Shown here: piece after piece, positions 2,384 to 47,224 of the stretch | How positions within the stretch are numbered: the first letter of the stretch is position 1 | Layout of the letters: every line of letters begins with the position of its first letter | Source of the DNA: Diplonema papillatum | Taxonomy: Eukaryota > Euglenozoa > Diplonemea > Diplonemida > Diplonemidae | Assembly: GCA_030068145.1 (NCBI GenBank) | Contig: JAPJBO010000072.1 | Span: forward strand, 359,001-423,000 | Direction: 5' to 3' | DNA: 64,000 bases | The notes under the pieces: model-generated | Seen by the model: only the letters and a program-made list of their open reading frames with translations | Told to the model about the DNA's origin: nothing | Database searches by the model: none | Made by a program: the position numbers and the translations under genes

Positions 2384-2529
2384 TTATGTTGAACGCTTAC
2401 GCCCGCCACTAAACCCAGATTCACCTGTGTTTCGTGTGGGCTACAGCACATTTACCTCCTTTGATCTTTTGCAGCTGGCAGCCTCCTCAAGTATTTCCTA
2501 CAAAGCAGGTGCTTATACAAAAAAAAAAA
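2384..2529 (+). repeat. Family A repeat, 3' part with A-tract
   Basis: This matches the last two thirds of the full copy at 60228-60455: GTTGAACGCTTACGCC, then GGCAGCCTCCTCAAGTATTT, then GCAGGTGCTTATAC and about 11 A. It sits antisense to ASCC3 with its A-tail towards the 5' splice site. Other copies or pieces lie at 21255-21502 (minus), 24564-24775, 46030-46100 and 49800-49850. Confidence 0.9.
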
Positions 2530-2553
2530 GGAACGCCGCGCAGGGATGCACAC

Positions 2554-3666
2554 CTTCTCGAAGCAAATCTTGTCGTAGAGCCACGTCTGGTCGCGCGACG
2601 GCGGCGGCTGCTTTTTGCCTTCTTTCCCGTCGGTCGCGCCGTCTTCGGCCGGGGCGCCCTGCGCGCCTCCTTTTCCCCCCTTCCCTCCCTTGTTGCTGAT
2701 GGCTTTGTCCTTCGTCCGCGCCTTTTCCTGCACGCCGATGAACACTTGCTTTAGCGGAACCGGTCGGAAGGCGGAATCGAAGACGAAGAGTCCCGTCGTT
2801 CTGTTGCACCCTAAAAAGTCGCTCACGTCGCGGTAGTTGGGGAGGGTGGCCGACAGCCCTACCAGGCGGATGCCCCGCTGCGTGAGTTCTTGCTCCCGCA
2901 GCATGCGGGCGACTAGGACTTCGATCACGGGGCCTCGGTCCTCGTTGAGGAGGTGGATTTCGTCGAAGATGACTAAGTTCGTCTTCGCGACGAGCGCCTC
3001 CGTCTTCTTCCGCGTGATGACGTCCCACTTCTCCGGGGTCGTGACGATCAAGTGCGAGTCGCTCATCTCCTTCTTGGTAAGCTGCGCGTCCCCCGTGCAC
3101 TCTTTCACGACCATGTTGAACGCGGACAGTTTCTTCGAGAAATTCGTGACCATCTCCTGCGCGAGCGCCTTCATCGGCGCGACGTATATCATCTTGAACT
3201 CCTCCTTCATCAGCGTCCCTTCGGGGGTCACGTGCTTGCCGATCTCGTGCAGCATCGTCAGCAACGCGCAGACAGTTTTACCGGCTCCGGTCGGGGCGGA
3301 GATGAGCACGTTTTCCGAGGAATAAAACGCGGTTTGGAAGACCTTCGTTTGCACCTGGTTCAGGTGCGTGATCTGGGAGCCGAAGGCCAGCTGGGCCCAT
3401 TGCGGGAGGTCTGCGACCGCGATCAGCTCGCTCTGGTGGACAACCGGTCGCTGCGCGATGGGTAGCTCGACTTCGACGTAGCCGTTGTACTCCGTGTACT
3501 TCGTGTCCCCGGAGAGCCGCGAGAGGGTTTCCTTGATGTCGGTTGAGGTGTACTTCTTGATGGTCGCCTGCTCCTCCTGCTTCCGCTTCTCCTTCTCTTC
3601 CGCGTTCGCGAGGCCCCGCAGGTACTCCTGCTGCTTCGCCATGGCCTTCGTGTCGGCGCGCGTTTT
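2554..3666 (-). CDS. ASCC3: ASCC3/Slh1-like helicase, exon 2 (first RecA domain)
   Basis: The 371-codon exon carries the ATP-binding domain of the N-terminal helicase cassette. In order: a charged helix (MAKQQEYLRGLANAEEKEKR), LPQWAQLAF and a Q-motif-like LNQVQTKVFQTAF, Walker A APTGAGKT, VAPMKALAQEM (Ia), TGDAQL, TTPEKWDVITRK (Ic), the DEIH box (IFDEIHLLNEDRGP), GLSATLPNYRDV (III) and FDSAFRPVPLKQ. A lineage-specific Gly/Lys insert (GGKGGKGGAQG) follows, before CFEKV. The exon begins at CATCAG|AAAACG, so its first residues are KTRADTKA and the ATG at 3642 is internal. It ends at AAG|GTGTGC, phase 0. Residues from WDVITRK to SATLPN match ASCC3 more closely than Brr2. Confidence 0.92.
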
Positions 3667-4308
3667 CTGATGGGAATTGCGTGTTGTGAAACGTCGGCAA
3701 AAGACGCAGCGGACCTTCTTTGTAGTGTTGATGAAAGTTCGCGTTGGAACTCCGGGATGTTAAGGCCTCCGGTTGACGTTCGGCAACGGGGATATACTTC
3801 ACACGCGGCCAGCAGAGCTCTTTTTGTGAAAAGTTGCTTGAAACTCCGGGATGTTAAGGCTCTCCAGGTGACTTTCGGCAACGGGGATTCGCAGAACTCG
3901 TTTTGTGAAAGTTCGCTTGAAACTCCGGGATGTCAAGGCCTCCGGGTCCTTCATACGCAGCCAGCAGGACTATTTTTAGCGTTTATTGTGGTTTAGAGGT
4001 TCGGTGTTTTAGGGTCTCCGGTTGACCATTGAGGCTGTGAGGCGGGTAGTATGCGGGTCGTGTAGGTATGATTATACACTTTAACTACGGTTAGCCATGT
4101 TTGTAAGTGTGGCGACCGACACCAAGAAGAAATTCGCTTTGAATTTAGTCTCATTTTTTGTGAGTTCGCTGGAAACGTTGGGTAAACTCTGGGAAGGTAA
4201 GGTCATCGGGTGACGGCAGAACTCTTTTGTAGAGAGACACTTCGTTGAAAAAGCTGGAGTTTTTCTGGAGCCCGCGCAATTGGTGTCAGTCGAAGCTGGA
4301 ACAAATAC
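3667..4308 (-). other. ASCC3 intron 1 with repeat fragments
   Basis: 642 nt, donor CAG|GTATTTG and acceptor CATCAG|AAAACG. Near the acceptor (3725-3960) are three related segments containing AACTCCGGGATGT, then a family D copy (3973-4150). Unlike most introns here it has no T-tract just inside the donor. Confidence 0.8.
3973..4150 (+). repeat. Family D repeat
   Basis: Holds GGTTTAGAGGTTCGGTGTTT, CTCCGGTTGACCATTGAGGC and GAAATTCGCTTTGAATTTAG. The same order occurs at 35942-36105 and 48445-48620, with a 5' piece at 38354-38425. There is no A-tail or obvious terminal inverted repeat, so its class is unknown. Confidence 0.85.
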
Positions 4309-4950
4309 CTGTTTCTGCAAGTCTCGCCTTGCCTTCTTATCGGAGGCGGTGGTGATGGTGAAGCCGTGGCCCAGCTGCGGCTTCATCTGCTCGTCTTGGT
4401 CGAGGGTCTGGTACTGGAACAGGTCGTCCATGAGGTCCTGTAGGATCGCCGACTTCGCGTTGAGGACCACCTGGATCAGCTCGATTTTGTCTGGCCCGAG
4501 GATCTCGAGCAGCTCCGACTGGAGTTGCACCAGGTATTCCGAGTCCTTTTTGGACCGCGTCAGGGCACCTACCACGAGCTGCACGACTTCCTCCCCCAGC
4601 ACGCGGACTGTGTTCGCTGCCTTCACGGCTTCGTCGCTGGACACGATGCCACCGCCAAGGCCGGAGGCCAAGGGGTGGTTGACGCGGTCGTTAGCCCTGG
4701 CCTCTGCCTCTCGTTCCCGTCGCTTGTCCGCGACGTACTTGAGTCTGCTCGCCCGCCGGCGCTCTTTGAACTCATCCGCGGTGAGCTGCTCGATCTTCCC
4801 GGCCGTTTCCGTGCGCCGCACGGCGTGCTGGCGGTTCACCTCATCGGGCAGGCGGAAGTCCGAAAACTGGAGCTCGCCGCCTTCGCTGATGCCCAGCAAC
4901 TCGGGAAGGTCGCTGGCGATACCGCGAAGCCATGAGTCGGCCCCCGGCAT
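4309..4950 (-). CDS. ASCC3: ASCC3/Slh1-like helicase, exon 1 (N-terminus)
   Basis: This 214-codon exon is the N-terminal regulatory region that precedes the helicase core in ASCC3/Slh1. It contains RRTETAGKIEQLTADEFKER, a basic charged helix (KYVADKRREREAEAR) and LQSELLEILGPDKIELIQVV, which resembles the helical segment upstream of the ASCC3 core. It ends RRDLQKQ at CAG|GTATTTG, phase 0 with exon 2. The ATG at 4950 is the first in the frame and I take it as the start; a further upstream exon cannot be excluded. Joined to exons 2 and 3 it gives at least 1069 codons in this window. A damaged copy of this exon and its upstream sequence lies immediately 5' at about 5101-5385. Confidence 0.82.
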
Positions 4951-5100
4951 GTGCGGGGAAGGCGGGCGGTTCCTTTCTTCTCGAGACTTTTCTTTTTTTT
5001 TTCTTCAGAAGGTTGTCTTTTTTTAGAGTAAAATGCTCGCTTGAGAACCCGGGATTTTAGAGGAAATTCTGTCTTTCTATATAAATGGCAGCTTGCAAAT

Positions 5101-5385
5101 GCATTCCCGTCGCTTATTCGCGACGTCTTTGAGTCTGCTCGCCCGCCGGCGCTCTTTTTGAACTCATCCGCAGTGAGCTGTTCGATCTTCCAGGCCGTTT
5201 CCGTGCGCCGCACGGCGTGCTTGCGGTTCACCTCATCGGGCAGGCGGAAGTCCGAAAACTGGAGCCAGCAACTCGGGAAGGTCGCTGGCGATACCACGAA
5301 GCCATGAGTCGGCCCCCGGCATGGGCAAGGCGGGCGGTTCCTTTCTTCTCGAGACGTTCTTTCTTGAAAGTTGTCTTTTTTTTCA
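5101..5385 (-). pseudogene. Broken tandem copy of ASCC3 exon 1 and its upstream sequence
   Basis: Nearly base-for-base copy of about 4710-5020: the same Arg-rich helix, the block encoding LPDEVNR, the start codon and the pyrimidine-rich upstream stretch. It has two extra T in the run before GAACTCATCC and lacks 20 bases after GGAGC, so the frame is destroyed. Divergence is low, suggesting a fairly recent duplication. An unrelated stretch of about 80 bp separates the copies. Which copy supplies the promoter cannot be told from sequence. Confidence 0.9.
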
Positions 5386-5557
5386 AAGTGGATCTTTTTG
5401 GGCGCAAAAGGCGCAATTGTTGGTACAACGTTTTAGGAGCTGGCGGCATACCCACGCCTGCAACTCTCCAAATAAAAACAGGAGTGAAAACGCGAGTGCG
5501 CACCACCCTAATGCGCTGCATTCGGGTGGTCATTTTTGAACGATCGCCAGTGTTCAA

Positions 5558-5745
5558 TTGAGCCGGTCCGTCCCTATCTCTTGAACCTGCATCGAAGTGC
5601 CTGCCGCTGTATATCACAGTGAATCACGGTCCACCACGGTCTATCAGGTCCATCCCTAGTCCCTAGAGCTGCATCGAATTGCCCGGTGCTGTATTACGGT
5701 CTATCAAGAGGGTTGAAGTATGCCTAAAGGGGATGGACCGGCTCA
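5558..5745. mobile_element. M5 inverted-repeat element (GCCGGTCC termini)
   Basis: Begins TTGAGCCGGTCC and ends GGACCGGCTCA, with no long open frame, so it is a non-autonomous MITE-like element. A second near-complete copy with the same ends is at 20984-21152, and partial copies lie near 28343-28475, 29095, 42296-42480 and 48779-48936. Internal marks are TGCCCGGTGCTGTATT and CACGGTCTATCA. Confidence 0.8.
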
Positions 5746-6312
5746 TCAATATCGTCCCAGCCAGGGCCACGCCATGCTGCGGGCAACTCGAAGGCCCCCC
5801 TATCTGTCCTGCCCCGGGGGGCGACCACGTTTTTGATTTTCCCTTCCTTCCACTGCCAGACCGTGCCTGGTGCTGGTACAACTGTTCAACTGTTACAATC
5901 GCCCCCGTCGCCCGCGCGATGCGTGTTTTACGTGCCGGGGGCAAGGATGGTTATTAGCCTGTTAGTGAGCGAACAGCATTGGGCTGACCTCCTTCCTAAC
6001 ACGTTGCCAGCGTTCTCTTTTCGAGTTTACACCTTAATTGCTAGTACGGAAAAAGCTGCGCGCAGAGAAAGCAGAAGAAAAGCGTGCACAAAATGGACAC
6101 CGTGTGCTTGAGGCTTCTTTCGGTTCATCTGCGTCGTTCCGAAGGAGACTAGGCCTTCGGAGAGGCTGCGGTCCCGTATAAATTATTTCTCCCCCCGCCC
6201 CAGTCCTTTCAAACAGCTAGAGCACCGGAAAAGCTGTAGAAGACGGAGAACAAAAGGAAACAAAACTTTGCAAAATTACACAAATGGAGAAAAATAAGGA
6301 AAAAGAAGAAAT

Positions 6313-6351
<39 letters not shown>

Positions 6352-7600
6352 CGAAAGAGACAGGTGGGCCAGAAAGCTGGCCAGGGCGTGGTACCCTGCA
6401 ACGCCCAGCCGGCGGACATGCACCCAGGTTACGGTCGTTCGATGGAACAGGTGCGTGGGATCTCCTTTTTTATAGGTTTAACACTTTAACCTCGGGAACA
6501 GGGGATGTGAAGAGTTTGGGCAGCCTGGCCCAATCTCCTGCTTTGGCACGTAATTCCGTGCATCACACTGCAGTGCAGTCTCGGCGTGCCCAGTGGTATG
6601 TATATTGAGCCAATTTACCCCCGGTGTTTACGACTGACAGTGAGATTTGCGTTTTTCTATCACTGTGGCTTTCATGATACGGATGGGTGCTAGAAAATGA
6701 TGCTCGTGACATGGACGCGAGCGCTGAAGCCGAACCAATTTTCGCGCTTCGGAGCACAATTTACCGCAACAAGCGCTGCCCAGACGCAGAAATCGTGTAC
6801 CAGATGAAGGGTTGGAGGATGGTTAAGAACGTGGCAGGTCCACTGAGTGGGTGTACACACAACCCATCATCCACTAGCAGCTAGTGGAGTATCGTAGTAA
6901 GCTGGTGGTATCCCAGCACCCACGTACCATCCACGTGGATGGTCGCTTGAGGGCCACCCACGTGATAGCCGTTGAGCACTGGGATTTTTTGTACATGGAC
7001 CACATGGATCAGCATGCCGTTGAGCAGCGGCTGTAGACCCCGCCTTCCTGTCTTCGCGTCATTCTGAGCCTTTCTTTTGTTCAAAAAAAGGCACGGCGCG
7101 CGTGGTAAGCGGGTGAGGTGGGTGGCGGGGAGTGAACGCACTCGCTTGCGCCACTGTCTGCGTGGAAACGCACGTATGTTGAAAGACGGTCTTGCGTGGC
7201 TTGTCAGGGAAACGCATTACTTGTATAAAAGTTGGCACCGCCCAGGTTGTGCCCACGCACGAGCAAGTCTGGCTACAATAATGGAGATAGTTACTCCCTT
7301 CGTTCTTGACTCTCGGGGCACTGGACAGAATGGACAAAAAGTTCGCAACAGTTCGAAGCTTGCACAGTGCATGGCAGCCGCAACATGCAACAAAGTCCAG
7401 GTCTCTCGGTGTGAGGGTGTGAGGAAAACACCTAAAACGGCAACTCGCAGCTGAAGACGTCTCCGCGCTACACGCAAACGCCATCAGCCAGCGCAGTGAA
7501 AGAGAAGGCGGCGGTGCGTTTCATCATGGCGAGCCAAGGGGTGGCTCGCCGGAAGGGCGCACGGCTTTGCATGACGGTTGGCAGGCTCAGGTAGCCCGAT
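5746..7600. other. Intergenic, no gene recognised; contains a 39-G tract
   Basis: No coding similarity seen on either strand. A run of 39 G occupies 6313-6351. About 6948-7040 matches 52570-52675 (ACATGGATCAGCATGC followed by an AGCAGCGGCTG block), marking another low-copy dispersed repeat. Confidence 0.7.
6313..6351 (+). repeat. Poly-G tract, 39 bases
   Basis: Uninterrupted G run. Other long G runs are at 35910-35932, 37569-37585, 44178-44193, 44354-44369 and 57333-57356. The length should be treated as approximate because homopolymers are error-prone. Confidence 0.9.
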
Positions 7601-7639
7601 GTGGTTACCGGTGGTTCGCCAGAGAAACCCACCACTCAC

Positions 7640-8175
7640 TCGTGGGAGTATATCCCTGCGGGTGCGTTGGCGCCTACATGCCAGTCACCCGTGAGAGAGT
7701 ATAACTGCGGGTGGGTTGGCGCCTACATGCCAGACACTCGTGAGAGTGTATCCCTGCGGGTGGGTTGGCGCCTACATGCCAGTCACTCGTGAGAGAGTAT
7801 AACTGCGGGTGGGTTGGCGCCTACATGCCAGTCACTCGTGAGAGAGTATAACTGCGGGTGGGTTGGTGCCTACATGCCAGTCACTCGTGAGAGAGTATAA
7901 CTGCGGGTGGGTTGGTGCCTACATGCCAGTCACTCGTGAGAGAGTATAACTGCGGGTGGGTTGGCGCCTACATGCCAGTCACTCGTGAGAGTGTATCCCT
8001 GCGGGTGGGTTGGCGCCTACATGCCAGTCACTCGTGAGAGAGTATAACTGCGGGTGGGTTGGTGCCTACATGCCAGTCACTCGTGAGAGAGTATCCCTGC
8101 GGGTGGGTTGGTGCCTACATGCCAGTCACTCGTGAGAGTGTATCCCTGCGGGTGCGTTGGCGCCTACATGCCAGG
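7640..8175 (+). repeat. 49-bp minisatellite, about 11 copies
   Basis: Unit contains GGGTTGGCGCCTACATGCCA and CACTCGTGAGAG. Two unit types alternate irregularly, one with GAGAGTATAACTGC and one with GTATCCCTGC. The frames crossing it (repeats of GWVGAYMP or VGWRLHA) are by-products of the repeat; I see no start context or domain supporting a protein. Confidence 0.93.
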
Positions 8176-14494: not shown

Positions 14495-14954
14495 AAGACA
14501 GGCGCTTCGTTTTGTTTGTGCGTTCCAGCTTTCGTTGACCGCACTACCCTGAGCCCAAATCCTGGACGTGGTTTCAGGTGGCAAATTTGGCAAATGATCA
14601 TGATCAGAAGGTCCTACTTGGGCGGTTCAGGTTCCTCACACATTGCATGTGGCTAAAATACTCGACGTAGCTGCTTCGACTCCGAATGGAAGGGGGGAAA
14701 TATAGAGGTAAGGGGCAAATACAATACAAACACAATCTGATTTGTTCTTCGCTTACACCACCGTGTGTTGTTTTCTCACTCAGGACTTTTGACCTGTTGT
14801 GTTTGTGTGATTTGTCGTGTAGGGGTAGACCCGCATGACCTCACGTCCGTTCAACACGTGGTTCGGTAGTTACAGCACTTTGGATCCCTTCTGTTCTTTG
14901 TCGGGCAGCATCGTCGAGCATTTCCTTTCAAGCTGGCGCTTAGGTAAAAAAAAA
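14495..14954 (+). repeat. Chain of families C, F and B
   Basis: AAAAAAGACAGGCGCTTCG (family C end) runs straight into family F (14525-14654: CCTGAGCCCAAATCCTGG, AGGTCCTACTTGGGCGG, CATTGCATGTGGCT), which joins a full family B copy (14655-14954). B opens AAAATACTCGACGTAGCTGC, has GACCTCACGTCCGTTCAACA, and ends CAAGCTGGCGCTTAGGT plus nine A. Confidence 0.88.
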
Positions 14955-21880: not shown

Positions 21881-23798
21881 AAACGATTGGGGCGGAACAC
21901 GCCTCTCGTCACCGTTGTCTCGGAACAAGAGAAAGGAACGCGTTTTGGTTTGACAGTGAGAGATAATGCGGAAAAGAAAAACACACACAAAGGAAGCGAG
22001 TCGCAGAAACAAAGTGCGCTTTCGGCGGTTTGGAAATCCTTTCGTTGACCGGTTGCTGGAACGGGTAGTCACAGAGTGTCTTGAGAGTGAAAGTTCGCTT
22101 GAGAATCCGGGATTCCAAAGTCTCCGGGTGACCTTCGTAGAATGGGTTCGTTTGTAGTACACGGAATTAGAGCGTTTTTTTTTTTTTTTGAGTTAAAACA
22201 ACTGGGGTTTTTGTGAAGTCTCCCGGTTGCCCGTTGGGGCTGGAGGCGCGGTGAAGAGGGGGAAGAAGAAGGGCCCTGCAAATCTTGCGGGTCACCCCTA
22301 CAGAGCGCTAAAAGGACGCAGGCGCAGCGTGTTTTTGTAGAGTGAAAGTTCGCTTGAAACTCCGGGGTTTTATAGTCTCCGGGTGACCTTCGTCGTTAAG
22401 GGATTTTGTGGTGGATGATCTCAACCTCCAAACCCGCGTCGGAAACAGGGTTGAAAAACACAAGTGGGAACTCGATCAACCGGCACGCGCGAACAAAGCA
22501 AAGGTCTCTGCCTGCTGGATTAGCTCGGATACAGCGAAGACAACAGCGAAAACCAGGCGAGCGAGTTTCACCGTTTCTTGGCCCATCGGATTACGACCTG
22601 CGTGGGTTTCGGGTCATGTTATCGTCTTATCGACTTTCAACATAAACTCGCAGACTTAAGAGCTTTTGAATCAGAGCCAAAAGCAATTTCGCGTTCGCGC
22701 CAACAGGTGGTAGAGTACTGATTTGAACTTGATACGCGGCAACAATGTGCAACGATAGACTGCATAAGTCGCTACTGACTGACTGGCTGGCTGGCAACCT
22801 TTTAACACGCGTCGTGTTGTGTTTCGGTCGCTTCTTGCCCAGCGTACCATTTTGTCTCCGGTGCGCATTTCACGTCGGCTGCAGGCTGAGGATCCCATTC
22901 CAACCCGGCGAACTTCGTTTTCCCCCTTCCGGGCTGTGCTTCACTGCGGTTCTTGCTGAGCTTGCCTTCGGACACCGTTAACAGAGCAACAGACGTACTG
23001 CCCGGGCCCCCGAACCTCGCCGCCAACCGAAGGGGGAAACCCCTTTGGACGATGCTAGCGACGCTGTGCCGCCTGTGTCGGGAACTGCAGCTGCCGTCGC
23101 CGCTACCGGCCGAACGGAAGGAACGGGTGGGCTCGATGAGGACGCTGGGGGCGCCGATGCTGTGGGGTGGTCTGACACCGCGGCCGCATTTCGCTGGGGG
23201 GAGGGAGACGTTCGAAGTCTTGGAGGAACTTCCCACGCGCGGCGCTCGGGGAGGAGTCGCAGGCAGACCCCCAGCCAAACTCTCCAATCCAAAATTCACG
23301 TGGGGATACAGCTGCCCACCAAACAAGACGGGAAGGCAACGCATCGTCAGTAGTCCGGACACGTGCGCTGTGTGCAGGACGCGTGCCCTTGTCACTGCTG
23401 CCGCTCAGGGATACAGAGTCGGCTGCTCTCACGCACGTGTCTTCAAATGAGGATTCGCGAGCCGAAGCCCGTTTGTCCTGCATCGGATAAGTGAAGCGGC
23501 AACAAGAAGATCGGTGCTTCTCATTGTTGCGGCCTCCCCGCCTATTCCACACTTCTCGTGCCACTGCACAAAGTCAGACGAGAGTCAAATACCTCGCACT
23601 ACACTTCGCTCGCCACCAGCTGTGACGAAGCGAAACGTTGCTGTGCTAATCAACCGGGTGCGGGCATTTCTTCTTTTTGCTTGGGTGCGCTGGCGGAACT
23701 CACCTGCTTTTGGCAAGCTGCATGTAGTACGCAGCCAGCCACAGAGGTTTTAGTACGAGCAATGCAAAATTGTTAACACAAAGGCAATGGGCACGTAC
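21881..23798. other. Repeats plus a GC-rich open stretch; possible further exons of the unknown gene
   Basis: 22080-22400 holds two copies of a segment with GTGAAAGTTCGCTTGA and CTCCGGGTGACCTTCG. 22430-22520 is an antisense family C piece. 22800-23450 is GC-rich and open in several frames on both strands, so it could hold a downstream exon of the unknown minus-strand gene, but I cannot choose a frame. 23465-23610 matches the inverse of 54525-54660. 23645-23790 is family G, ending next to the donor at 23798. Confidence 0.5.
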
Positions 23799-24107: not shown

Positions 24108-25332
24108 CTGGTCGTGTGTTTTGAGTTTCGCGAGCGTTTGAGACAGCTGACCGTGCACGCGTCCTCTATATAGAGGAACGGGACGTGTTACCTTGTTTCG
24201 TTTCCAGGCTTGAAAATATGAACAACCACCATTACACGCAATCTCGGTAGCTAAAGGTTCGTGTCCTGCAGGGAACAAGTTTTTCCCAAGCCGCCGTATG
24301 AACAACTAGGCTACAACACGCTGCGGCCTTGCTGGGGTTGCGCCCCCGCGCCCCCACCCAGCCATCTGGGGCTTCCTTTCCAACAGAAAAAGGATGTCCT
24401 TGTATCCCTCTCAAATCAGAACTTGTGCCCTTATAGCCCACTTTCACACAAGATTGTGCTCTTGTTACACACACTTTCAAAGTGAAATTTGCATGCCGAT
24501 GAGTACCACACTATATATCCCTTTGAGATTTCGCAACTGGCAGTCTCCTCAAGTTCAAGTCAACAAAAAATACTCGAGGGGCTGCCTTGTGCTTACTTCG
24601 AAGGAGGCTAAAGGGGGAGAAACAATACAACTACAAAGTGGGTCTTTTTTGTTGAACGCTTACGCCCGCCACTGAACCCAGATTCACCTGAGTTTCGTGT
24701 GGGCTACAGCACATTTACCTCCTTTGATCTTTTGCAGCTGGCAGCCTCCCAAGTCTTTCCTACAAAGCAGCTGCGTTTTCCGGGAAGGCACTCAGCTTGA
24801 CCTCCTCCCAGTCAACGGCATCCGGGACGCAGTCGTCTTTCGACTTGAGCAGCTCAGCCATTTCTAAGATTATTTCTGTGTTTGTGCGTGCCGGTTGATC
24901 GTTTTCCCACTGGTTGTATTTACCCTGTGTGTATTCAGGCTAGGAATTCTGATCAACCACCAAAACACGCTGCCTACGTCTTTTTAGCCTGCACAATACA
25001 TTGAAGGGCAACCCACAAGATTGTGAAAAATACTCGACGTAGCTGCTTCGACTCCGAATGGAAGGGAGGAAATAGAGAGGTAAGGGGCAAATACAATACA
25101 AACACAATCTGATTTGTTCTTCGCTTACACCACCGTGTGTTGTTTTCTCACTCAGGACTTTTGACCTGTTGTGTTTGTGTGATTTGTCGTGTAGGGGTAG
25201 ACCCGCATGACCTCACGTCCGTTCAACACGTGGTTCGGTAGTTACAGCACTTTGGATCCCTTCTGTTCTTTGTCGGGCAGCATCGTCGAGCATTTCCTTT
25301 CAAGCTGGCGCTATGTAAAAAAAAGTTCGCAC
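24108..25332 (-). other. Intron 1 of the unknown gene, filled with repeats
   Basis: Donor CCAG|GTGCGAAC, acceptor GACCAG|GCATTA. From acceptor to donor it holds a family A end and a near-complete A copy (24564-24775), a 100-bp open segment shared with 56762-56866, family C (about 24877-25018) and a full family B copy (25026-25324). The B tail lies 8 nt inside the donor. About 24540-25324 is repeat with almost no unique sequence. Confidence 0.75.
25026..25324 (+). repeat. Family B repeat, full length, abutting a 5' splice site
   Basis: AAAAATACTCGACGTAGC through CAAGCTGGCGCTATGT and eight A. It is antisense to the host gene, and only GTTCGCAC separates the A-tail from the last exon base. Confidence 0.93.
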
Positions 25333-28710: not shown

Positions 28711-31700
28711 TATGCGTCCTCAGAACCCGAGGGCAGCAACGCGGTCAGACTGAACAAGGTCCGAGGCGCTTCTTTGCCTCTCGGGACTACAGCTAGAAAG
28801 ATAGTCGGACAGGAAAGGCGAGTACGGTGTGTGAGCATTAGTGTGCGCGAAGGCGGATTGAACAAAACGCAAGGGGTAAAGAAGAACGAACGAAAGAGAG
28901 AAAAAGAAAAGAAAACGAAGATAAAAACCGCAGAAAAGAAGAGCGTAAACAATGAAAAATGGGTGCGAGAGGCGGGCCTCTCAGGTTAAGAAGAGTTAAG
29001 AAGCCGAAAAGTCGCAACTTTCGGTTGGAGGGGGTGTTGTGGGGGGGTTGGTGGTGGCAGTTCTAAGACCGAACATCGCACTCGTCGTTGGCATTAAGCC
29101 GGTCCATCCCTGTCCCCGGCGGGACGTCGAACTTCTCGCGCGAAAACGGGCGCGCTTCCTCTTTGCAAGGAGAAAGTCGCTCAGGGGGTGACACCTTTGT
29201 ATAGTTAGTTTAGGCAGGCCATTGCATCGCGTGGATGTTTGCAAGAACGAGCTTGGAATCAGCACCGCACTGGTCATGTGCACCGTGGTTCGGTTCTTTA
29301 AGCCACGGGCACATAGGGGGATCTGAGCGCTAGAGACAGACAGGACAGCGACGTGAGTCTCGGTGGCGCATGAGCACCTCAGGGTGTCTGCTTCAGACTG
29401 CACGGTACTGTCTTGCTTACCCGACATCGGTCCCCGGATCCTGACGGTAAGGGGGTGGAGCTTCGATAGTATGTCTCGTTCTAATTCGGGAGCAAGCCTT
29501 GAAGAAGGACAATCCTCCTGCGTTCTTATCGAATTTGCCCTGTCTGTCAGATCCATCCCTATCCGCCCTTACACCAAGGCCACACAGGAGGGTCGGTGCA
29601 GTGCCCGGAATGTTTTCGAGTGAAAACTCGCTGGAAACTCCGGGGCTTCTTTTCAACATCAACGCGGGTGCCTCAGACTTGACCGTTTTGCAGCCCCTTT
29701 GCACCCACGACGGTTACCTCTGATTCGCTTCGGCTGGAGGAGCGAAAGATATTGCGGGGAGGAGGCGAGGTTGGGCTCTCTCGTCCCCTCTTCTTTTCCC
29801 TGCAGTTAACCTGAGGGCCCATCCCTATCCCCTGGAGCGCTGCACGGAATTGCCTGGTGCTGTTGTTTGAGGGAACGCCGCGGTCGAACACGAGGGAATG
29901 AACCGGCCCACGGTTCTTCTTCTTCTCGACAGGTGCTCGATCTGCTGTGATGCTACGACTGGATGGAGCCCAAAGGAACCCATTTTCTCGGTGGAAACGC
30001 TCAGTGACGTCCTCGAGGAGCTAGACTTTGGACGAGTTCCCGGAGTGGACGCGCCCTGCGATCATTTCAGAGTGCCGACAATCACCGAGGCTGTTGGACA
30101 GTCTGGTGTCTTTCGACTTCTCTGTGGTCTGCCTATCCTATCCCTTGTGGTTTGCCGTCTGTACAGTCGTGCAGCAGGTTCCCGCCGACTTCTTTGCAGT
30201 TGAGAGGCTCGGCGCGTCTCTTTTCACAGGAGAAATATATAAAATAAGAGGGCGCCTACTAGGCTCCGCACACTTTTGCAAGGCAGATAGAAGAAACGGG
30301 AAGGCGCGATGCCTCCGGGCTACGGTGGTAAAACGAATCGCTGTTCGGAACGCGGGCATTATTTCTCAAGTGGTTGAAGGCATGACTCCTTTCATCGGGT
30401 GGGGGGGTTGGGGTCGTAGTTTGTTGGTACACGGCGGAGTTCGGCCTCAGAAGCTGGAGTAAAAGAGTGCCCGAAAACGCGGGTGCCACAACCAAAACGC
30501 GAGGAAATGCACACCCGAATAGCGTGTGCGACACCGCTGTTTAGCAGAAGCGGGAGCGTGTGAGCGAGCCAGCACATGCCTTGCGTTAACTCCGTTTAAG
30601 GGCGGAAAGCGGCGTGGGAAAGCCAAGAGGGGGGTAAGAAAAAAAATACAGTTCAACGTCTAAACCCCACGAGGCGCTGAAGCAGGCTAGAATAAGTTTG
30701 AAGCGCTCGCCTCCCACCCCTCCTCCCATGCTCCGGCCCCTCCCCCGCTTTGCTCACATGGTGAACCCAGGCCTCAGAAGCTGGAGCTAATTGTTGGCGA
30801 AAAAAGTGCAACAAAAAATAATAATAAAAACGCACGCCCTGCCTTTTTTTTAGAGCGCGACGACGAATGTCTGCTTTCACTCCACTACTCTTCTGTGTGC
30901 TTGGTGTTCACACCAAGGGATGGGGGATATTTGCCAAGGCGACAGAGTGTAGAAAGAACGAAGGCGGTTGCAAGTGGGTGGGGAACCTGCAACAGTGGGT
31001 GCTTGTTCCAAAAAGCTCATCCGGGACCTGGTGAAATTAGACTGGTGGTTCGCGTCCCTCTCTGCACCCGACAACACCAGGCATTGCTTCACCGGCGGAT
31101 CTCGGTTTTTTTCGCAGCAGAAATTACCATGCGTCCTCTAGCAACTTGCTCGCCTGGCTGCCAGTGCTGCGGTAGATTGCTCGGTTAGCTCAGGCCACGT
31201 CTTCTGGCTGCCCTGCGTTCCATATATCTCCGCCCGAGCAGAACTGTTAACAGTGGGCAATTTGCGCGCCTCCTGCCATCTTCAGATGCGGTGGCAGGCT
31301 CTGCGTCTTGCTCGGTTTGCCCACGCCACGGTTTCTGGCTGCCCCGCGTCCCATTTCTCTCCGCCGCCACAACAGCAGTGATGCTGGTTAGGCTAATTGG
31401 GCACCTGCCGCTGCCCACCTTCTAGATGCGGCTTCTGCAGACTTCGCTCCCGCCGGTTTTCGGCTGAAAACGCCAGAAATGAAAAACGCGCGGGGGGATG
31501 AACCTGGCGCAGCGCGCATCCGCTGACTTGAGGTGTCCGAGTGATCGCTCATCAGATCCCACAAAGGGTGTCGGTTCATCTTGACAGCAGGACGGTGGCC
31601 ACGGAAGTCGGGCATCCGATAATGAGTGTGTAACAACTCACCTGCCGAATGCACAGCTCCCGAAAATGGATGATGCGCAAGCGATCCATCCATAGTTGGC

Positions 31701-31865
31701 CGCGTACTGGTATCACAAAGCCAGGCGTGCGTAGGAGTGCGTGGTCCACGCCGCGACGTCGTTGGCGTGGTGGCGGACACATCAGGAGGACGGCAGCCCC
31801 TTGGTGTATATTGGTTTTCTAATGGCGTTCGGGGTGGGATGGTGTGTGGTGGTCCGCCCAGCCGT
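28711..31865. other. Intergenic between RPT3 and the unknown gene: repeats only
   Basis: 29245-29420 is family E. 30420-30560 and 30765-30790 carry half copies of M4 (CCTCAGAAGCTGGAG). 31170-31440 holds two diverged copies of a segment of about 140 bp (TTCTGGCTGCCC, ATCTCCGCC). No gene recognised; frames of 60-190 codons show no family resemblance. Confidence 0.6.
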
Positions 31866-32084: not shown

Positions 32085-32114
32085 CTGATGAAGTGTGTGA
32101 GTGTGTTTAAGTTC

Positions 32115-32234
32115 ATCCTTAGATGTGGTAGCTGTTTCTCAGGCTCCCTCTCCGGAATCGAACCCTAATTCCCCGTTACCCGTTACAGCCACGGTAGTCC
32201 ACTACACTACCGTCAAAAGCTGATAGGGCAGAAG
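32115..32234 (-). rRNA. 18S rRNA fragment (pseudogene) inside the RPT3 intron
   Basis: About 120 bp of the conserved 5' domain of 18S rRNA, on the same strand as RPT3. It holds TGCCCTATCAGCTTTTGACG, GGACTACCGTGGC, GGGTAACGGGGAATTAGGG, TTCGATTCCGGAGAGGGAGC, CTGAGAAACAGCTACC and ACATCTAAGGA in the correct order. It stops abruptly on both sides, so it is an isolated insertion, not a gene. The GACGGTAGTG and ACATCTAAGG wording resembles apicomplexan and other alveolate 18S, as far as memory allows. Confidence 0.93.
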
Positions 32235-32582
32235 CTCTTGCGGGCTTGCACCGACTTGAAGTCGTGTGCCATCACTCAATTGACCTGTTTCATCCACACA
32301 CCGCTGCTATTGCTAGCGTTGGTTCTTATCTCGGTCAATTGTATCCACCTCGGCCCCGCGGTTTTGCCACGGAGTTGAATCGAGTTGGAGGGCTTTGAGT
32401 GGGTAACGGCTGAACCGAAGTATAGCCCACTCGTCACTTTCACCAGTCGGCTTTGAGTTTCCGACATGCTGCTTTTGGGTCCTGTGACTCCTCTCCGAAG
32501 GATGGGTGGGGCGGGATCCTTCCGGGGACGGATAGAGCGTGGGAGAAGTGTGTGAGTGTGTGGGTGTCACGCATGGGCATTA

Positions 32583-32855
32583 GCGGAACTCAACCTACCT
32601 TGGTAAGTTTCACGTAGTACGCTGCCAACTGCTAGTTCGTTCTTGGTACCGAAAGGTGTGATCCGCGCACTGTGCAATCGCGGAACTCAACCTACCTTGG
32701 TAAGCTTCATGTACGCTGTCAACAACTAGTTAGTTCTTGGTACCGAATGGTGTGATCCGCGCACTGTGCAATCGCGGAACTCAATCTACCTTGGTAAGCT
32801 TCATCAACAACTAGTTAGTTCTTGGTATCGAATGGTGTGATCCGCGCCCTTTCAT
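32583..32855 (+). repeat. Three-copy tandem repeat, about 100 bp unit, in the RPT3 intron
   Basis: Units contain GCGGAACTCAACCTACCTTG, ACAACTAGTTAGTTCTTGGT and GGTGTGATCCGCGC and shrink by small deletions. The unit resembles family G (GGAACTCACCTGCTTTGG), so it may derive from a G element. Confidence 0.88.
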
Positions 32856-32929
32856 GAACCCTGTAAGAACCCAGCACAAAGCCGGCAAAACTTGAGCCTC
32901 ATCACACCACTAAACAATGCCTTGATACC

Positions 32930-33085
32930 ACAAAGTAGTACGCCGCTTTCTTTTGTTCGTGCGCGCTAGCGAGACTCACCGGCTTTGGTACATGTCATGA
33001 AGTATGATGCCACACCCCTACTATTGTGTTAGAGTGAAAGTTTTTGGTACCACCACTGCACTGCCAACACAATGAATGTACGGGC
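32930..33085 (+). repeat. Family G repeat
   Basis: Shows TTTTGTTCGTGCGCGC, GAGACTCACCGGCTTTGG and an ending near GCCAACACAATG. Related copies at 23645-23790 and 62470-62580 have GGAACTCACCTGCTTT and end TTGTTAACACAAAG. Two of the three end close to a minus-strand 5' splice site. Confidence 0.65.
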
Positions 33086-33133
33086 ACGATGTTTGTTTGC
33101 ACGCGCCGCGACACAAAAGAAAAAGCAGCATGC

Positions 33134-40149: not shown

Positions 40150-40735
40150 TAGGTACAGCACCCTGAACTCGAATCCTGGATGAGCTTTCAGGTGGCAATT
40201 GATCGTGATCAGAGGGACCTGCCTGGGCGGTTCGGTTTCCTCGCACATAGAAAATACTCGGCTAACCCAGATTTACCCGCGTTTCGTGCGAGCTGCGTCG
40301 AGGATTGCCCGCAATCACGCAAAACCCCACGCCCCAATGTTTTCCTCCAAGGGTTCCTGCTACTCGGATACGAACGTTGCTCAAGAACATCACTGGCGAA
40401 AGGGGAGGATGGCTTTGCTGGTCACAGTTTGCTGTTTGTGAGTAAAAGAAAAGGAAGCGAGTCGACCACACACAACCCACTGGTTCCGAAAACTACAGGG
40501 TCGGATGGTGGGCAGAAGGATTTTGGCAAAGTACGATGCCGTACACGGGTGTGCGCTGTCTGTAACCAAGAAAAAGACAGGCGCTTCGGTTTGTTTGGGC
40601 GTGCCGGTTGATCGTTTTCCCACTTGTATTTAACCTGTGTCACTTTCAGGTCAGGAATTCTGATCGACCACCAAAACACACTGTCCACGTCTGTTTTAGC
40701 CTGCACAATACAATGCGCAAGATTGTTGGTGCTAA
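40150..40735 (+). repeat. Family F and family C copies
   Basis: 40150-40245 is a diverged F copy running into AAAATACTCGG. 40572-40735 is a family C copy (AAAAAGACAGGCGCTTCGG, GCCGGTTGATCGTTTTCCCA, CTGATCGACCACCAAAACAC, ATTGTTGGTGCTAAAAA). Confidence 0.82.
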
Positions 40736-42295: not shown

Positions 42296-43090
42296 CGACA
42301 AGCCGGCCCCTCCCTTTCTGATAGACCGTCCGTGATGGTCTGGGTTAGTTTGGGTTAAGAATGCAAGGAATCTATGGCGATAATCTGCATCGTGCAGCGT
42401 GATGGACCGCCAAACCCCTCGAAATACAGCGCCAGGCGATTCTATGCAGCTCCACGAGATGGAGATGGTCTTGATAGACCGGGTGCAACGTGATACACCG
42501 CGATAGAGAGAGAGACGAGTAAGAGCGCAGGGACCATCTCTCCGGAGAGTATCCGGTCGCCCCACTACTGTCCCGTACTACTACGGCAGCCGTAGGCGCG
42601 GTGCGAGCCGCGGCCCTGTCAAAGAAGATGATTGCACCGATGGTGGCGCAGCCGGGGGCGTGACTTACGGGCGAGACCGCCTGGCTGGCGTGTGTTGACA
42701 CGTTGTGTCGCGGGCTCTCCTCCCCGCCCTACGGCGGCGGCTAGACAGCCGATAGACAGCGGCAGGCAATGCGATGCACCCATTCCATGGGAAAAAGGGA
42801 TGGGCCGGCCGAAGCAAGAACAGAGCTCCGCAACGTACAACCGCGGGCTACGCCACCTGTGTTACCCTCCTCGTCCTCCTTGACCGACACACTCACCAGT
42901 GCTGCTGCCCTGCAGCGCTCGATGTCCAGTGCTGTGTATCAACACCAATATCGAGCAAAACCCCCTGGTGCTACACACACCGAAGTCCTCACGACTGCGG
43001 TATTGGCGCCAGTGCTGTGTATCAACACCGAACATCGAGCAAAATCCCGCACCTGGTGACTACTCACACCGCCGTCCTCACGTCCTTACC
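42296..43090 (+). repeat. M5 fragment and a two-copy tandem repeat
   Basis: 42296-42480 keeps parts of M5 (AAGCCGGCCCCTCCC, TGATAGACCG). At 42935-43080 a unit of about 95 bp with CAGTGCTGTGTATCAACACC and CATCGAGCAAAAYCCC occurs twice. Confidence 0.75.
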
Positions 43091-44204
43091 CCCTTGATGT
43101 TATGCGTGTTGTGCTACGGCCTTCGTTGAAACCCGACCGATCAAGCAGAAGACAAGAAGATACCGTGTCGGTTCCCAGGCTGTCGCGCCACCCGCCCTGT
43201 TTCAAGTATTCTTTCTTTTCTTTCGGACGAGCGGTACCCGCGCACCGCAACAAAAAAAAAAACAAGACCATTTAAAAGAAAATCAGAAAAAAGGAAAAAG
43301 AAAAAAAGAAAACACACAAAAAAAGAAGCGTCACCGGCGGAGAACTCTACGCCGCCGGAAAACGCCCGTGTGGTCTCCCGGCGAGGCTAGGACAGAGGGA
43401 ACCGTGTGCTGTTTGACGCGCCGAACAGTCGTTTTCGAACTGAACCGGAGGCTTGACAGCGGCCCACGCCGTGCCCAGTTGCAGTCGAAAGAACGTGATC
43501 GGTTTCCTGGAGTGAGCACTGTGGGGGCACGCATGGCGAAGCCCCAGCACGCATGTTCACTTCAGTGGTCACGTAAACCGCACACACACTCACACGTGGG
43601 AGGGGAGAGCAGTCGTAGTGGTGAGGGCCCAGGAATACCGGACCGGCCCTCGGGGTGGGGCGTGGCGGGGAATGGCAAGGATGGCCGGTGGAGCTGCAGC
43701 AGCAAGAAATGCCGCACAGTGTGCGGTCGGTACGAGAAGCGGCAAACGCGGATAAGGCAACGAGTACAGAGCAGTCGACACGCAGACGAGCAGTAAAGCC
43801 GCCCGCGTCGCATGGTGGCACAAACCGAAGAAGCCCGTGCGGCACGGAGTGGAGACGAGGTGATGCAAGACGAAGGGGAAGCGCGAAGCCCCAGCCCGGA
43901 CGGATCAACAAGACGTAGGACCAGGCGACCAAGAGAAGGAGGGGGACGCGACCCAGAGACCCGGGCTAAGTAGCTTGGAACTAGTGTGATGGACCTTTCT
44001 TCGGAGGGGCTCACGCACTCAAAGATCGACTTATACGCACAGAGTGCGCAGAGAGGGTACCCCAGAACAGGCGGAAGCGGGTGTGCTTTTTGACGACTTT
44101 GATGGTGGAGCATCCCTTCTGCGACTCTGTTGACTTCTCACATCACCTCTTGCCCTTCTCCTTCCGAGATGAGAGTCGGGGGGGGGGGGGGGGCGGAGGG
44201 GGAT
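43091..44204. other. Intergenic; inverted partner of 20085-20330
   Basis: 43715-43960 encodes on plus TEEARAARSGDEVMQDEGEA, matching the minus-strand frame of the 20.1 kb copy. The other frames vary more, so the element may once have been coding. Poly-G 44178-44193 follows. Confidence 0.55.
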
Positions 44205-45060
44205 TGCAAGAACGTGCTTGGAATGGGTATGTGCTCAACACCGCACTGGTCCCGTCTGCGCCGTGTTTCGGTCCTTTAAGCCACGGACACATAAGGCGGA
44301 CCATCATCAGCGTGGAACTTGAGTGTCTGCAGACAGGACTGCGGTGTGAGTCTGGGGGGGGGGGGGGGGTGCCCCATCGCAACGGAGTCGATGAGGACGC
44401 AATGGGTACGTCGAATCTCCTTCTGCAACCCTGCAGGGGTGACAATTCGGAGCCGGTAACGGAGCCCGTGGTACCAAACATCCGGCCGCGGTCTTCATCG
44501 TTCGCAGAGCCAAGACATCCACCGATAAGTGCAATTGATGTCACCCTCGATCAACCGCAGTTGAGCCGAGGGGAACAGTTGTTTTGCCTTTCCGGTTGCT
44601 CGGGATTTTCGGTTTCCTTCATGACCATGTTTGAATCCTCGGTTTCCAATCTGTATAATTTGCAAAACCGCTTTTACTGCCTATCGAGTAAGTTCCTTAC
44701 GACTCCCCCCCCGGACCGAACCGCAGCTGAGTCACAGTTGTGTTGCCTTTCCGAATGCTCGGGGTTTTCGATCCTTCATGGCCATGGTTGAGTCCTCGGT
44801 TTCCAATCTGTATAATTTGCAAAACCGCTTGTACTTTCTATCGAGTAGGTGCCAGAAGTCCACCTTCTCTTTGCAATTCGTCTGCTCCTTACGTCTCCCC
44901 CCGGACCGAACTGCAGCTGAGTCACAGTTGGTTTGCCTTTCCGAATGCTCGAGATTTTCAATTTCCTTCATGGCCATGTTCGAACCTCGGTTTCCGGTCA
45001 GTCAACAGTGGTGCCTGCCAGATCCTCTCTTCCAGAACAGTAACTTTTGGTGATGATCCT
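44205..45060 (+). repeat. Family E copy, 16-G tract and a three-copy tandem repeat
   Basis: Family E at 44205-44360 ends in G(16). At 44570-44990 a unit of about 165-180 bp (CAGCTGAGTCACAGTTG, TTTCCAATCTGTATAATTTG, GAATGCTCGRGRTTTTC) occurs three times with indels. Confidence 0.85.
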
Positions 45061-46468
45061 GCTGGCTGGTACACCCCACACAGCACTTGCCACGAATTGT
45101 GCTTGTATTGCCCGGTCCTGATCGGAGGCCCCTGAAGGCGAAGCCGGAAGGAATCTGGCGGGGTATCCACAGATTCCACGCGGGTCGTTCCGGTTTGCCC
45201 CTGCTCGGCAGCCGCCTTTTTAGCAACAGAAGGCACACAAAACGACACTATTTTTTGCTTCCGAGCACCAGAAACAACTCCGTTGCACTGCAGAGCCCTG
45301 CCGCTGTGGGACCCACTTTGGACCTCCATTGGACCCCACTGCGGCACCCGCTTTGGACTGTGGATCCACTGTCGGCACACGGCGCAGCCAGCACACTTTT
45401 GTGCACGTTGAGTTGGCACAGGACTGTTCCCCCACCACCAGAGATCGGCCTGTGTGTCTCACAACGCGGGTTTTCGAAGAAACGAACGTGTTCGCGGTTA
45501 CACGTTCACCGAGACAAGTCGTGCACATGCGAGCTACGAGGCCTCGGCATCGCCGGAGGTGAACTGCGCGCACAAAAAACGGAAGGCGGGCAGGCACACG
45601 GCACTGCCCAGACCCATTCGCATTCCTGCTGGGAGCACGCCCTGTGGTGTGAGAAGGAAGGTGGGAGAATCTTAGTTTCGTGTTCAGGCGCTACTTGCCT
45701 TCTCATGTGTTTGATGCTAGCATCAAGTCTTCTTCGCGGAATGCAGAGTCTTGTTTTCTGTTCTTTTCTTTTTTTCGTTGTCGACGAATTCTTTTTTCTC
45801 CTTCTACTTTCTTTACCATGGTCTTTTTGGACTTTCTGGTGCCGTAGGGTGTGTGGGTGGCTTGAACAACGCGAGAGAGCGAACTGTGAACGACCAGAAC
45901 TACGAACGCCAAAATTGTAGCGCGAGTGAAGCGTAAGCGTGCAGTGAGTGTTGGGCGTAAGGATAACAACAAACAGACACCGGATGGGTCACTCTTGGCG
46001 CGCTGCGACGGCTGCAACTGCTGCTGGTAGCTTGTGACAAGCTCCTTTGAGGTTTCGCAACAGGCAGCCTCAGGTATTTCCTACAAAGCAGGTGCTTATA
46101 GTAGTAGTTAGTAGTAGTATGTGTCGTCTGCCGAAGCAGCCGGAGACAGCAGGCGCAGGGGGCAGGTCTTGCTTTACAATTCTCTTCTTCATGGAGACCC
46201 GCCCCCGGCAATCCCGACTGTCCAATCACTGTCGAGAAAGGTTTGTGCTCTATAGTGATGAGGTGGTTGACCAGGCCTCCACGAAGCCTTATACACAACA
46301 CGGAGGATGCAGCCCTGCTTAGGTATGCACTCAGCCATCACAGGGCCTCAGATCTCGCTACTTGACCTGACACAGCTGCCACCCAGAAGGCCGCAGCAGT
46401 AACCTTCGCAATGAAGGCACGCGCGGCTGAGGGGGAGGGTGCTCATACAAAAAAGAAAAAGAGCACAC
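45061..46468 (-). other. Downstream of the carrier exon: intron or intergenic, missing 3' exon not found
   Basis: The longest frame here (277 codons, plus, 45087-45920) is composite and includes repeat sequence; I see no family. 45705-45745 carries the GATGCTAGCATCAAGTCTTC repeat. 46030-46100 is a family A end (GCAGGTGCTTATAG). The intron's first bases are GTGTGCTC followed by TTTTTCTTTTTT and GTATGAGCACC, a diverged antisense family A tail. Confidence 0.55.
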
Positions 46469-47224
46469 CTTCCACAACCCGCGCGGTCCGTCGTTCTGGA
46501 AGATGTGTTGGATGGTCTGCAGCATGCCGGTGTAGACGCGGCGGGAGCCCTGATTCTGCAAGCGGGTCTTTGCGATGAAGAACGGCATCTTCGGGAACGA
46601 CGCCATGAACCCCATGCACATGCCGGTCGCGCAGTCCTGCATGAGCCCGTTGGCCGTCGACGTCGGCACGGGGAGGTACGCTTGGGCGGAGTGCACGCCG
46701 AAGAAGTAGGTCGAGTTGAAGATGATGTTCCGGGTGCTCATGGCCGCGTACCCGGTGTAGAAGACGCCGAACCCTTCGTTCCGCGCGATCGAGACGAAGC
46801 AATCGACCGTGTTCCGGTACTGGCTGGCATAGTCGGACGACATCAGCCGCACCTTCGCCACTTCGAATGGGCAGACCAGCGTCGTCTCACTCACCCCAGA
46901 CGCCATGCCGCTCGCGAAGACACCGGCATTCGACAAGTGCCCGTCCGCGTCCCTGAGCAGCTTCGCGAACTGTTTCTCCCCCGCGTACATTCCGATGGTG
47001 GCGGGGACGGCCGCCAGCACCTGCGGGCCCAGCCCGCGGTATAACGCGCGGACGCCGCCGGAGCCCCAGACCTCGCGGAACTCGCGCGCCATGCTGCTCC
47101 GCTCCCGGCCTTCCCGCAGCATGCACCGCGTCGCGACTATCTCGACGGGTTGGCACGTCGAGTACTCGGCGATCCCAGCGAGCCCTCCAGCAGCCACCTC
47201 ACCGACCACGTCCATCTTCCCCAT
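46469..47224 (-). CDS. Mitochondrial carrier (SLC25) family protein, first exon, 3' part missing
   Basis: 252 codons from the ATG at 47224 to GLWK, AAG|GTGTGC, phase 0. SLC25 proteins are six-helix inner-membrane carriers built of three repeats of about 100 residues. Repeat 1 has CQPVEIVATR (residues 24-33), repeat 2 CPFEVAKVR (118-126, a good PxExxK signature) and repeat 3 PFFIAKTR (214-221). The first motif lacks the basic residue and the third the acidic one, so the usual matrix salt-bridge network is incomplete. YRGLGPQVLAAVPATIGMY and FYTGYAAMSTRNIIF are typical second-helix segments. The substrate cannot be assigned; an oxodicarboxylate-type carrier is one possibility. About 40-60 C-terminal residues (helix 6) must lie in a further exon that I did not find. 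The next gene on this strand is RPT3, 12 kb away. Confidence 0.85.

Follow-up and report, generated by a model that had tools for sequence, protein, structure and literature searches.

Antisense T-rich tails of dispersed repeats occur beside likely 5' splice sites of Diplonema papillatum more often than expected by chance

Four introns within a 64,000-nucleotide stretch of the genome of the marine protist Diplonema papillatum (the window) carry a tract of T residues shortly after the 5' splice site, raising the question of whether such tracts are a general part of introns in this organism and whether repeats supply them. An initial annotation of the window had proposed that A-tailed retroposons lying antisense to the genes either create introns, become trapped at one fixed position after the donor or provide a U-rich tract through which the splice site is recognized. 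Genome-wide, the antisense T-rich tails of two repeat families (A and B) are commoner beside likely 5' splice sites than expected by chance, this concerning approximately 1% of the tails. The pattern resembles a U-rich splicing signal known from other eukaryotes, with some of the tracts here coming from A-tailed diplonemid repeats.

All four donors and their T-tracts were confirmed base by base, each lying on the minus strand (Table 1). Two of the introns match NCBI proteins, with the spliced carrier product showing 100% identity over 287 aa to D. papillatum protein P0001, and the other two were set by homology across the exon join. The joins of RPT3 and ASCC3 were found to be gapless at the junction relative to solved homologues, with their exons verified letter for letter. 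All 13 introns for which both ends were located have a GT or GC donor and an AG acceptor, dinucleotides that the placement itself presupposed; four of these introns are fixed by deposited proteins or cross-join homology, and that of RPT3 is of the GC-AG type.

The tracts of DIPPA_27173 and ASCC3 were identified as the tails of a family B and a family A copy respectively, as proposed, while the family A likeness suggested for the carrier tract was reduced to approximately 11 nt (GTATGAGCACC). The RPT3 tract, previously left without a family, by eye resembles neither A nor B. The remaining three donors of the window (ASCC3 intron 1, IFT88 and DIPPA_27173 intron 2) do indeed lack a clear tract. 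The resulting count of four tract-bearing donors among seven was picked post hoc and carries no evidential weight.

Table 1. Donors, T-tracts, introns and repeat copies examined in the window (donor position refers to intron base +1).
Feature	Position	Strand	Basis
DIPPA_27173 ("unknown gene") intron 1 donor GTGCGAAC with T8 at +9 to +16	25317..25332 (donor +1 = 25332)	-	Base-level check; boundaries of NCBI protein P0053
DIPPA_27173 intron 1, 1225 nt	24108..25332	-	P0053 mapped to window
Family B repeat copy, antisense to DIPPA_27173, A-tail on donor side	25027..25324	-	Repeat family D2, 98% to copy 14655-14952
DIPPA_27173 intron 2 donor GTACGTGCCC, comparison donor, longest T-run 4	23789..23798	-	P0053 mapping
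Carrier (SLC25-type) donor GTGTGCTC with T5CT6 at +9 to +20, then GTATGAGCACC	46449..46468 (donor 46468)	-	Spliced protein equals NCBI P0001
Carrier intron, 827 nt	45642..46468	-	Spliced protein compared with P0001
RPT3 GC donor GCATGCTGC with T5CT4 at +10 to +19, no assigned family	33115..33133 (donor 33133)	-	Homology across join, no gap
RPT3 GC-AG intron, 1049 nt	32085..33133	-	Join homology; exons verified letter for letter
ASCC3 intron 2 donor GTGTGC, 18 nt, then T11 at +25 to +35	2519..2553 (donor 2553)	-	Homology across join
Family A repeat copy, ~140-150 nt including T-tract, antisense to ASCC3, A-tail on donor side	2384..2529	-	
ASCC3 intron 2, 1099 nt, several dispersed repeats inside	1455..2553	-	Join homology

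Families A and B are similar dispersed repeats, whose copies possess a T-run of variable length at one end and flanks that mostly differ beyond it, as in A-tailed SINE-like retroposons. Exact tails numbered 4,179 for family A and 2,210 for family B across the genome. Within 30 nt upstream of family A tails, the donor word AGGTGYG was found 66 times (18.7 expected) and AGGTATG 15 times (3.2 expected), with AGGTGYG also preceding 25 of the family B tails (9.9 expected). Expectations were derived from how often each word occurred in a sample of 697,848 strand-bases (101 AGGTGYG and 17 AGGTATG). Counting each gap value once, which discounts duplicated loci, gave P values of 0.0003 (A, AGGTGYG), 0.0005 (A, AGGTATG) and 0.001 (B). 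The scrambled word AGTGGYG was found 15 times before family A tails, compared to 25.6 expected; as this lies below expectation (0.59), the sequence flanking A tails is not random. A sense-orientation control, in which AGGTGYG was sought before the 5' end of family A, gave 0 matches, but is a weak control because this end often has fixed composite flanks.

The excess of AGGTGYG peaks at gaps of 5-19 nt (50 versus 9.1 for A, 18 versus 4.8 for B), while AGGTATG was without preferred spacing, 7 of 15 lying at these gaps, the same as for the scrambled word. In total, 106 loci were listed (66 + 15 + 25), approximately 74 above expectation, and the donor words in excess are likely to be true donors. 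An exon-like end with a donor was found at a family A tail at locus L023, an SR-type RRM gene by reading of the sequence, and at L022, which reads as WASHC2/FAM21-like. Given this genome-wide link of antisense A-tails with donor words, the lead provided by the initial annotation had substance. It applies to a small minority of tails, and the fixed geometry that had been described gives way to gaps spread broadly from 2 to 30 nt, with long T-tracts not shown to be general.

The generality of the tracts was examined among 11 donors beyond the window that had not been selected for a tract, six of which (L018 twice, L009, L025, L030 and L031) were positioned solely from where the coding sequence ends. 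Loci with ambiguous coding ends (L010, L013, L029 and a kinase-like frame near C72:75821) were left out of this set, and C851 was not counted as an intron as it reads open in frame. The exons of a simple hidden-Markov gene finder (264 kb) were unreliable and were dropped; a kinesin search returned 132 exon matches, 48 of them ending early. A T-run of at least five at +7 to +36 was found for 1 of the 11 outside donors (null 6.7%), compared to four of seven in the window, which gives no support to generality of the tracts. At the same positions, the pyrimidine fraction of the outside donors was 0.63, compared to 0.50 for the noncoding parts of the window (p 0.0006 by resampling), and the T fraction was 0.31 compared to 0.24 (p 0.02). 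A pyrimidine run of at least eight was present in 5 of the 11, a small sample, with approximately 11% expected (P 0.006). Taken together, the few donors sampled outside the window are mildly enriched in pyrimidines from +7 to +36. Inclusion of the three tract-poor window donors gave 6 of 14 (P 0.003); as these had already been named tract-less, the 11 outside donors form the fairer set.

A T8 run within 25 nt after AGGTGTGC was found 75 times genome-wide on the forward strand, no clear excess over the approximately 66 expected, this expectation having a wide 95% range (35-98) because it is based on 17 sampled words. A backward-pattern control gave 41 on the strand where each word is counted once. 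The 1.8-fold excess that this would imply at face value was rejected, since the reversed word has its own frequency; sampled word counts, themselves loose, were therefore preferred. The reverse-strand count of 331 was discarded, as the same site was counted repeatedly.

On balance, we lean towards the T-tracts being strong cases of the known pyrimidine- or U-rich tract 3' of 5' splice sites, with repeat tails as one minor supplier. The U-rich stretch would help the U1 snRNP to hold loose GTRYGY-like (or GC) donors, presumably through an RNA-binding protein of the TIA1/Nam8 type. An antisense A-tail landing after a donor may mimic or reinforce such a tract, and would therefore tend to be kept. 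Target-primed insertion could perhaps assist, with poly(A) pairing with T-rich stretches and the element being left antisense to the T strand, while the tracts of RPT3, and perhaps of the carrier, would have a different origin. No clear homologue of TIA1/TIAR, NAM8 or PUB1 has been reported for two protozoa (PMC2766253), and the conservation of diplonemid U1-C is confined to its N-terminal ~55 residues (PMC12621601). A role for the U-tract in the splicing of these donors is thus far suggested by sequence. Counting against an enhancer, the ASCC3 homologue of another genome (P0054) appears to read through a GT donor, giving the peptide VCRIIIKIISL, which would imply an intron start that is A/T-rich and not U-rich.

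Insertion preference alone could place the tails without any role in splicing, if poly(A) priming favours T-rich stretches that already exist after donors. Target-primed reverse transcription, an established mechanism, yields the orientation and position seen when it proceeds into a T-rich stretch of the gene strand, and the mild T-richness at +7 to +36 is consistent with this. However, T-runs of at least five are no commoner after the outside donors than elsewhere (1 of 11 versus 6.7%), meaning that any such preference would need to respond to a weak richness in T. Target-site duplications, also to be weighed here, were not seen: in 27 rows of family A, taken from a set of 30 loci and including two duplicates, words shared between flanks averaged 4.6 nt, compared to 4.2 nt for mispaired copies, and a word of at least 7 nt was found in 1 of the 27, that one being T-rich. 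We consider this explanation unlikely.

Equally improbable, in our estimation, is that the elements give birth to introns. In such an introner-like process, A and B elements would insert antisense into exons. The T-tail would there switch on a cryptic exonic AG/GTRYG donor lying 5-20 nt upstream, and the new intron would be closed by an acceptor further downstream. Donor words are in excess directly upstream of both A and B tails, and the antisense consensus of family A holds an acceptor-like ACACAG/GT, but target-site duplications are lacking from the 27 family A rows, and direct repeats between donor and acceptor were not significant against mispaired controls (p 0.08-0.17, 13 introns). The best single repeat of this type was 7 nt in common for DIPPA_27173 intron 1. 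While ASCC3 intron 2 is GC-rich before its T-tract and reads like coding sequence, the element represents the first 150-300 nt only of the ~1.1-1.2 kb introns of ASCC3 (intron 2), DIPPA_27173 (intron 1) and L023 (intron 2), and none of these three was an element intron near-identical from end to end. Furthermore, the position of the carrier intron is apparently common to protein P0003 of another genome, which, judged from the protein alone, departs from the alignment at that very codon and continues as an unrelated peptide; for ASCC3, the break in homologue P0054 falls elsewhere. The proposed creation of introns by retroposons therefore found no positive support in duplications, direct repeats or the carrier position. 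More doubtful again is that A and B are retroposon-like intron makers acting in antisense only and without splice sites at their ends, with a downstream poly(U) enhancer turning exonic AG/GTRYG into a donor. If true, U1 would be recruited by mobile elements from the downstream side, and a single pre-existing site would suffice for an intron to be born.

Chance with selective listing, four tracts having been noticed among seven donors in a window rich in repeats and T-runs, is highly improbable. In its favour, T8 after AGGTGTGC is without clear genome-wide excess, neither the RPT3 nor the carrier tract is clearly an A or B tail, and the sample is tiny and chosen post hoc. The genome-wide excess before A and B tails, absent with the scrambled control, contradicts it for these tails, while the tracts of RPT3 and of the carrier, each considered by itself, may be due to chance.

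If the tails act as downstream enhancers of 5' splice sites, repeats would be shaping splicing in a group that is abundant in the sea and for which splice-site logos end at +6 (PMC12621601), and the 106 listed loci would be open to direct testing. If the elements create introns instead, this would represent an introner mechanism without target-site duplications or element-borne splice sites. Under either reading, support falls away from the wider idea that most introns share a fixed geometry.

Surveys of introns and genomes of the same organism and its relatives describe mostly GT-AG introns with few GC-AG, together with abundant dispersed repeats (PMC12621601, PMC10161547). The 5' splice site was defined as -3 to +6 in the former, and neither its Results and Discussion nor section 7 of the latter mentions a downstream tract or repeat tail at donors. 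Introners and introner-like elements are likewise repeated DNA tied to splice sites in a marine protist (PMC9860276; Amoebophrya, PMC7789003), whereas the element described here covers part of the intron only, no target-site duplication was found and approximately 99% of the counted tails are unaccounted for by the donor-word excess. The initial annotation knew of no described case, yet a close one exists in the pyrimidine tracts found 3' of 5' splice sites and in an Alu exon (PMC2766253). In the latter, a polypyrimidine tract 18 nt from the 5' splice site promotes use of that site through TIA proteins, and the polypyrimidine tract separating the Alu arms acts as a TIA-dependent enhancer of 5' splice sites (PMC2766253). 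The Alu splice sites lie within the repeat (exonisation), while the donors examined here belong to the host sequence that precedes the repeat tail. Among 22 eukaryotes, almost all are reported to have pyrimidine tracts with a centre at +15 to +25 and a length of 10-14 in 20-40% of their introns, and downstream U-rich or polypyrimidine tracts are bound by TIA1/TIAR, yeast Nam8 and plant UBP1/RBP45 (PMC2766253). The tracts of D. papillatum are alike in position, length, pyrimidine or U-richness and share of introns (5 of 11 and 6 of 14 here); they differ in that a binding protein and an enhancer function are predicted for them, and in that some of them stem from A-tailed diplonemid repeats.

The positions of the donors and T-tracts in the initial annotation were found to be correct at all four minus-strand sites upon checking the sequence of the window. 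Counting from the intron start (+1), tracts begin at +9 in DIPPA_27173 intron 1 and the SLC25-type carrier intron, at +10 in RPT3 and at +25 in ASCC3 intron 2, all as first described. The carrier gene, joined at its donor, yields 287 aa identical to the deposited D. papillatum NCBI protein, which places the window in the assembly of that species, and the intron boundaries of both the carrier and DIPPA_27173 agree with deposited proteins (two of the four introns). The RPT3 and ASCC3 joins, with exons verified against the window, were gapless at the junction when compared to solved homologues; the RPT3 intron is of the GC-AG type. Assignment of the tracts to A-tailed repeat families was upheld for DIPPA_27173 (family B tail) and ASCC3 (family A tail), while the carrier tract is A-like over only ~11 nt before diverging and that of RPT3 resembled neither family by eye. 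Other features observed are listed below. The inverted repeat holds a coding-like stretch (MAELLKSKDDCVPDAVDWEEV...) within DIPPA_27173 intron 1, which the deposited protein omits.

Coordinates of features (window positions, except where contig C72 is named)
Feature	Position	Strand	Remark
ASCC3 donor word before family A tail	C72:361509-361555	-	
MITE-like repeat	~5559-5746		Ends TGAGCCGGTCC / GGACCGGCTCA; also inside a dynein heavy-chain intron (L054)
Inverted repeat pair	24769-25024 and 56627-56869		98% identity
28S rRNA fragments	31521-31729 and 54572-54715		
18S rRNA fragment	32151-32418	-	Rfam RF01960, model 98-387; within RPT3 intron, gene strand

A catalogue of twenty donors (seven from the window, thirteen from outside) was used to examine generality. 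Six had been chosen for their tract, namely the original four together with those of L022 (apparently a WASHC2/FAM21-like locus) and intron 2 of L023 (apparently an SR-type RRM gene), these two by way of family A. The remaining fourteen consisted of three window donors that the initial annotation had reported without a clear tract, four from dynein heavy-chain genes (Pfam search) and seven in family A loci away from the tail; six of the eleven outside donors were placed from the coding-sequence end, without an acceptor. A T-run of at least 5 at +7 to +36 was identified in one of these eleven, against 6.7% of random noncoding 30-mers, and by our arithmetic one or fewer would have P ~0.001 if the true rate matched the 4/7 of the window. 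Genome-wide on the forward strand, AGGTGTGC followed by T8 within 25 nt occurs 75 times, against ~66 predicted by how often the word and the run each appear across 697,848 sampled strand-bases (range 35-98, just 17 words being sampled) and 41 for the backward-pattern control, so that a modest T8 excess is possible, though not established. A T-tract in most introns is unsupported. The pyrimidine fraction at +7 to +36 was 0.63 in the eleven outside donors versus 0.50 (p 0.0006), with a pyrimidine run of at least 8 in five (P 0.006), or six of fourteen with the window donors added.

Four introns were read on three contigs at dynein loci L052-L055, and 20 of 34 dynein AAA_6 matches cover profile positions 4-310 or more without interruption. 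Of 132 kinesin motor matches, nine stop at profile positions 263-269, which hints that this family may share an intron position.

Exact tails of family A (TTTTTGTATAAGCAC; element ~140-150 nt) and family B (~300 nt) numbered 4,179 and 2,210, respectively. The families are probably related, as 31 of the first 42 aligned consensus columns agree at the tail end. Eight family A copies (L002, L003, L010, L012, L015, L022, L025, L028) possess GTTCC directly before the T-tract (GGAAC directly after the A-tail), with differing flanks beyond it; the shared motif may mark the end of a subfamily or reflect a preferred target.

The donor word AGGTGYG was found within 30 nt upstream of 66 family A tails (18.7 expected) and 25 family B tails (9.9 expected), and AGGTATG upstream of 15 family A tails (3.2 expected). 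The scrambled word AGTGGYG occurred 15 times against 25.6 expected, showing that the flanks of A tails are not random sequence. With the gap taken as the distance from the donor word to the T5 of the tail, the AGGTGYG excess was greatest at 5-19 nt (A, 50 versus 9.1 expected; B, 18 versus 4.8), while AGGTATG, like the scrambled word, had no gap preference (7 of 15 at 5-19). AGGTGYG gaps span 5-30 nt for A and 2-27 nt for B, indicating a broad zone rather than the fixed geometry originally proposed. Duplicated contigs, which L005/L006 and L023/L024 appear to be, may inflate matches, but significance remained with each gap value counted once (P 0.0003 for A AGGTGYG, 0.0005 for A AGGTATG and 0.001 for B). 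The effect is small: of 6,389 tails, ~59 A and ~15 B loci exceed expectation (~1%). The words are candidate donors, that of ASCC3 being placed independently.

Selection, insertion bias or intron birth may be the dominant cause of this excess. No target-site duplication was identified in the flanks of 27 family A rows, and in the 13 introns for which both splice sites could be located, the similarity between the sequences around donor and acceptor did not significantly exceed that of mispaired controls (p 0.08-0.17). The element makes up the first 150-300 nt alone of the ~1.1-1.2 kb introns of ASCC3 (intron 2), DIPPA_27173 (intron 1) and L023 (intron 2). At the codon of the carrier intron, the homologue P0003, from another genome and with 59% identity, departs from the alignment and continues as an unrelated peptide (VCTVFILF...), whose back-translation would give GTNTGY and then T-rich codons. 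The intron position thereby appears to be common to both genomes; if it is, the carrier intron did not arise recently from a Diplonema repeat. Of the ASCC3 homologues, P0054 breaks at a different position and P0055 earlier. These three open-frame proteins, on other long ENA contigs that are perhaps diplonemid, apparently continue into intron sequence directly past GT donors and may be of use in comparative splice-site work.

Passages of PMC10161547 give an assembly of ~280 Mb for D. papillatum with transposable elements within long introns, and neither these nor its section 7 describe repeats at donors. The diplonemid 5’ splice site is defined as -3 to +6 in PMC12621601, whose Results and Discussion make no mention of a downstream tract, and the main text of PMC9860276 contains neither "euglen" nor "diplonem". 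Among the papers listed by literature searches, none dealt with repeat tails at diplonemid donors; a donor logo extending past +6 may exist in supplementary material.

The donors described here appear loose (GTGTGC, GTGCGA, GCATGC, GTATGC). According to PMC2766253, recognition of a weak donor is aided by proteins that bind a U-rich stretch shortly past it (TIA1/TIAR in animals, Nam8 in yeast, UBP1/RBP45 in plants); a clear TIA or Nam8 homologue was not found there in two protozoa. An antisense A-tail would supply a ready-made U-tract, such that copies inserted just past a donor would do no harm or even bring a benefit, and would be retained. An insertion bias of the same orientation could also come from poly(A) priming at T-rich stretches. 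The initial annotation knew of no described case, yet the same paper reports, for almost all of 22 eukaryotes, that 20-40% of introns carry pyrimidine tracts of 10-14 nt with centres at +15 to +25, and it describes an Alu exon whose 5’ splice site is 18 nt away from such a tract. The D. papillatum tracts match these published downstream pyrimidine tracts in both place and size.
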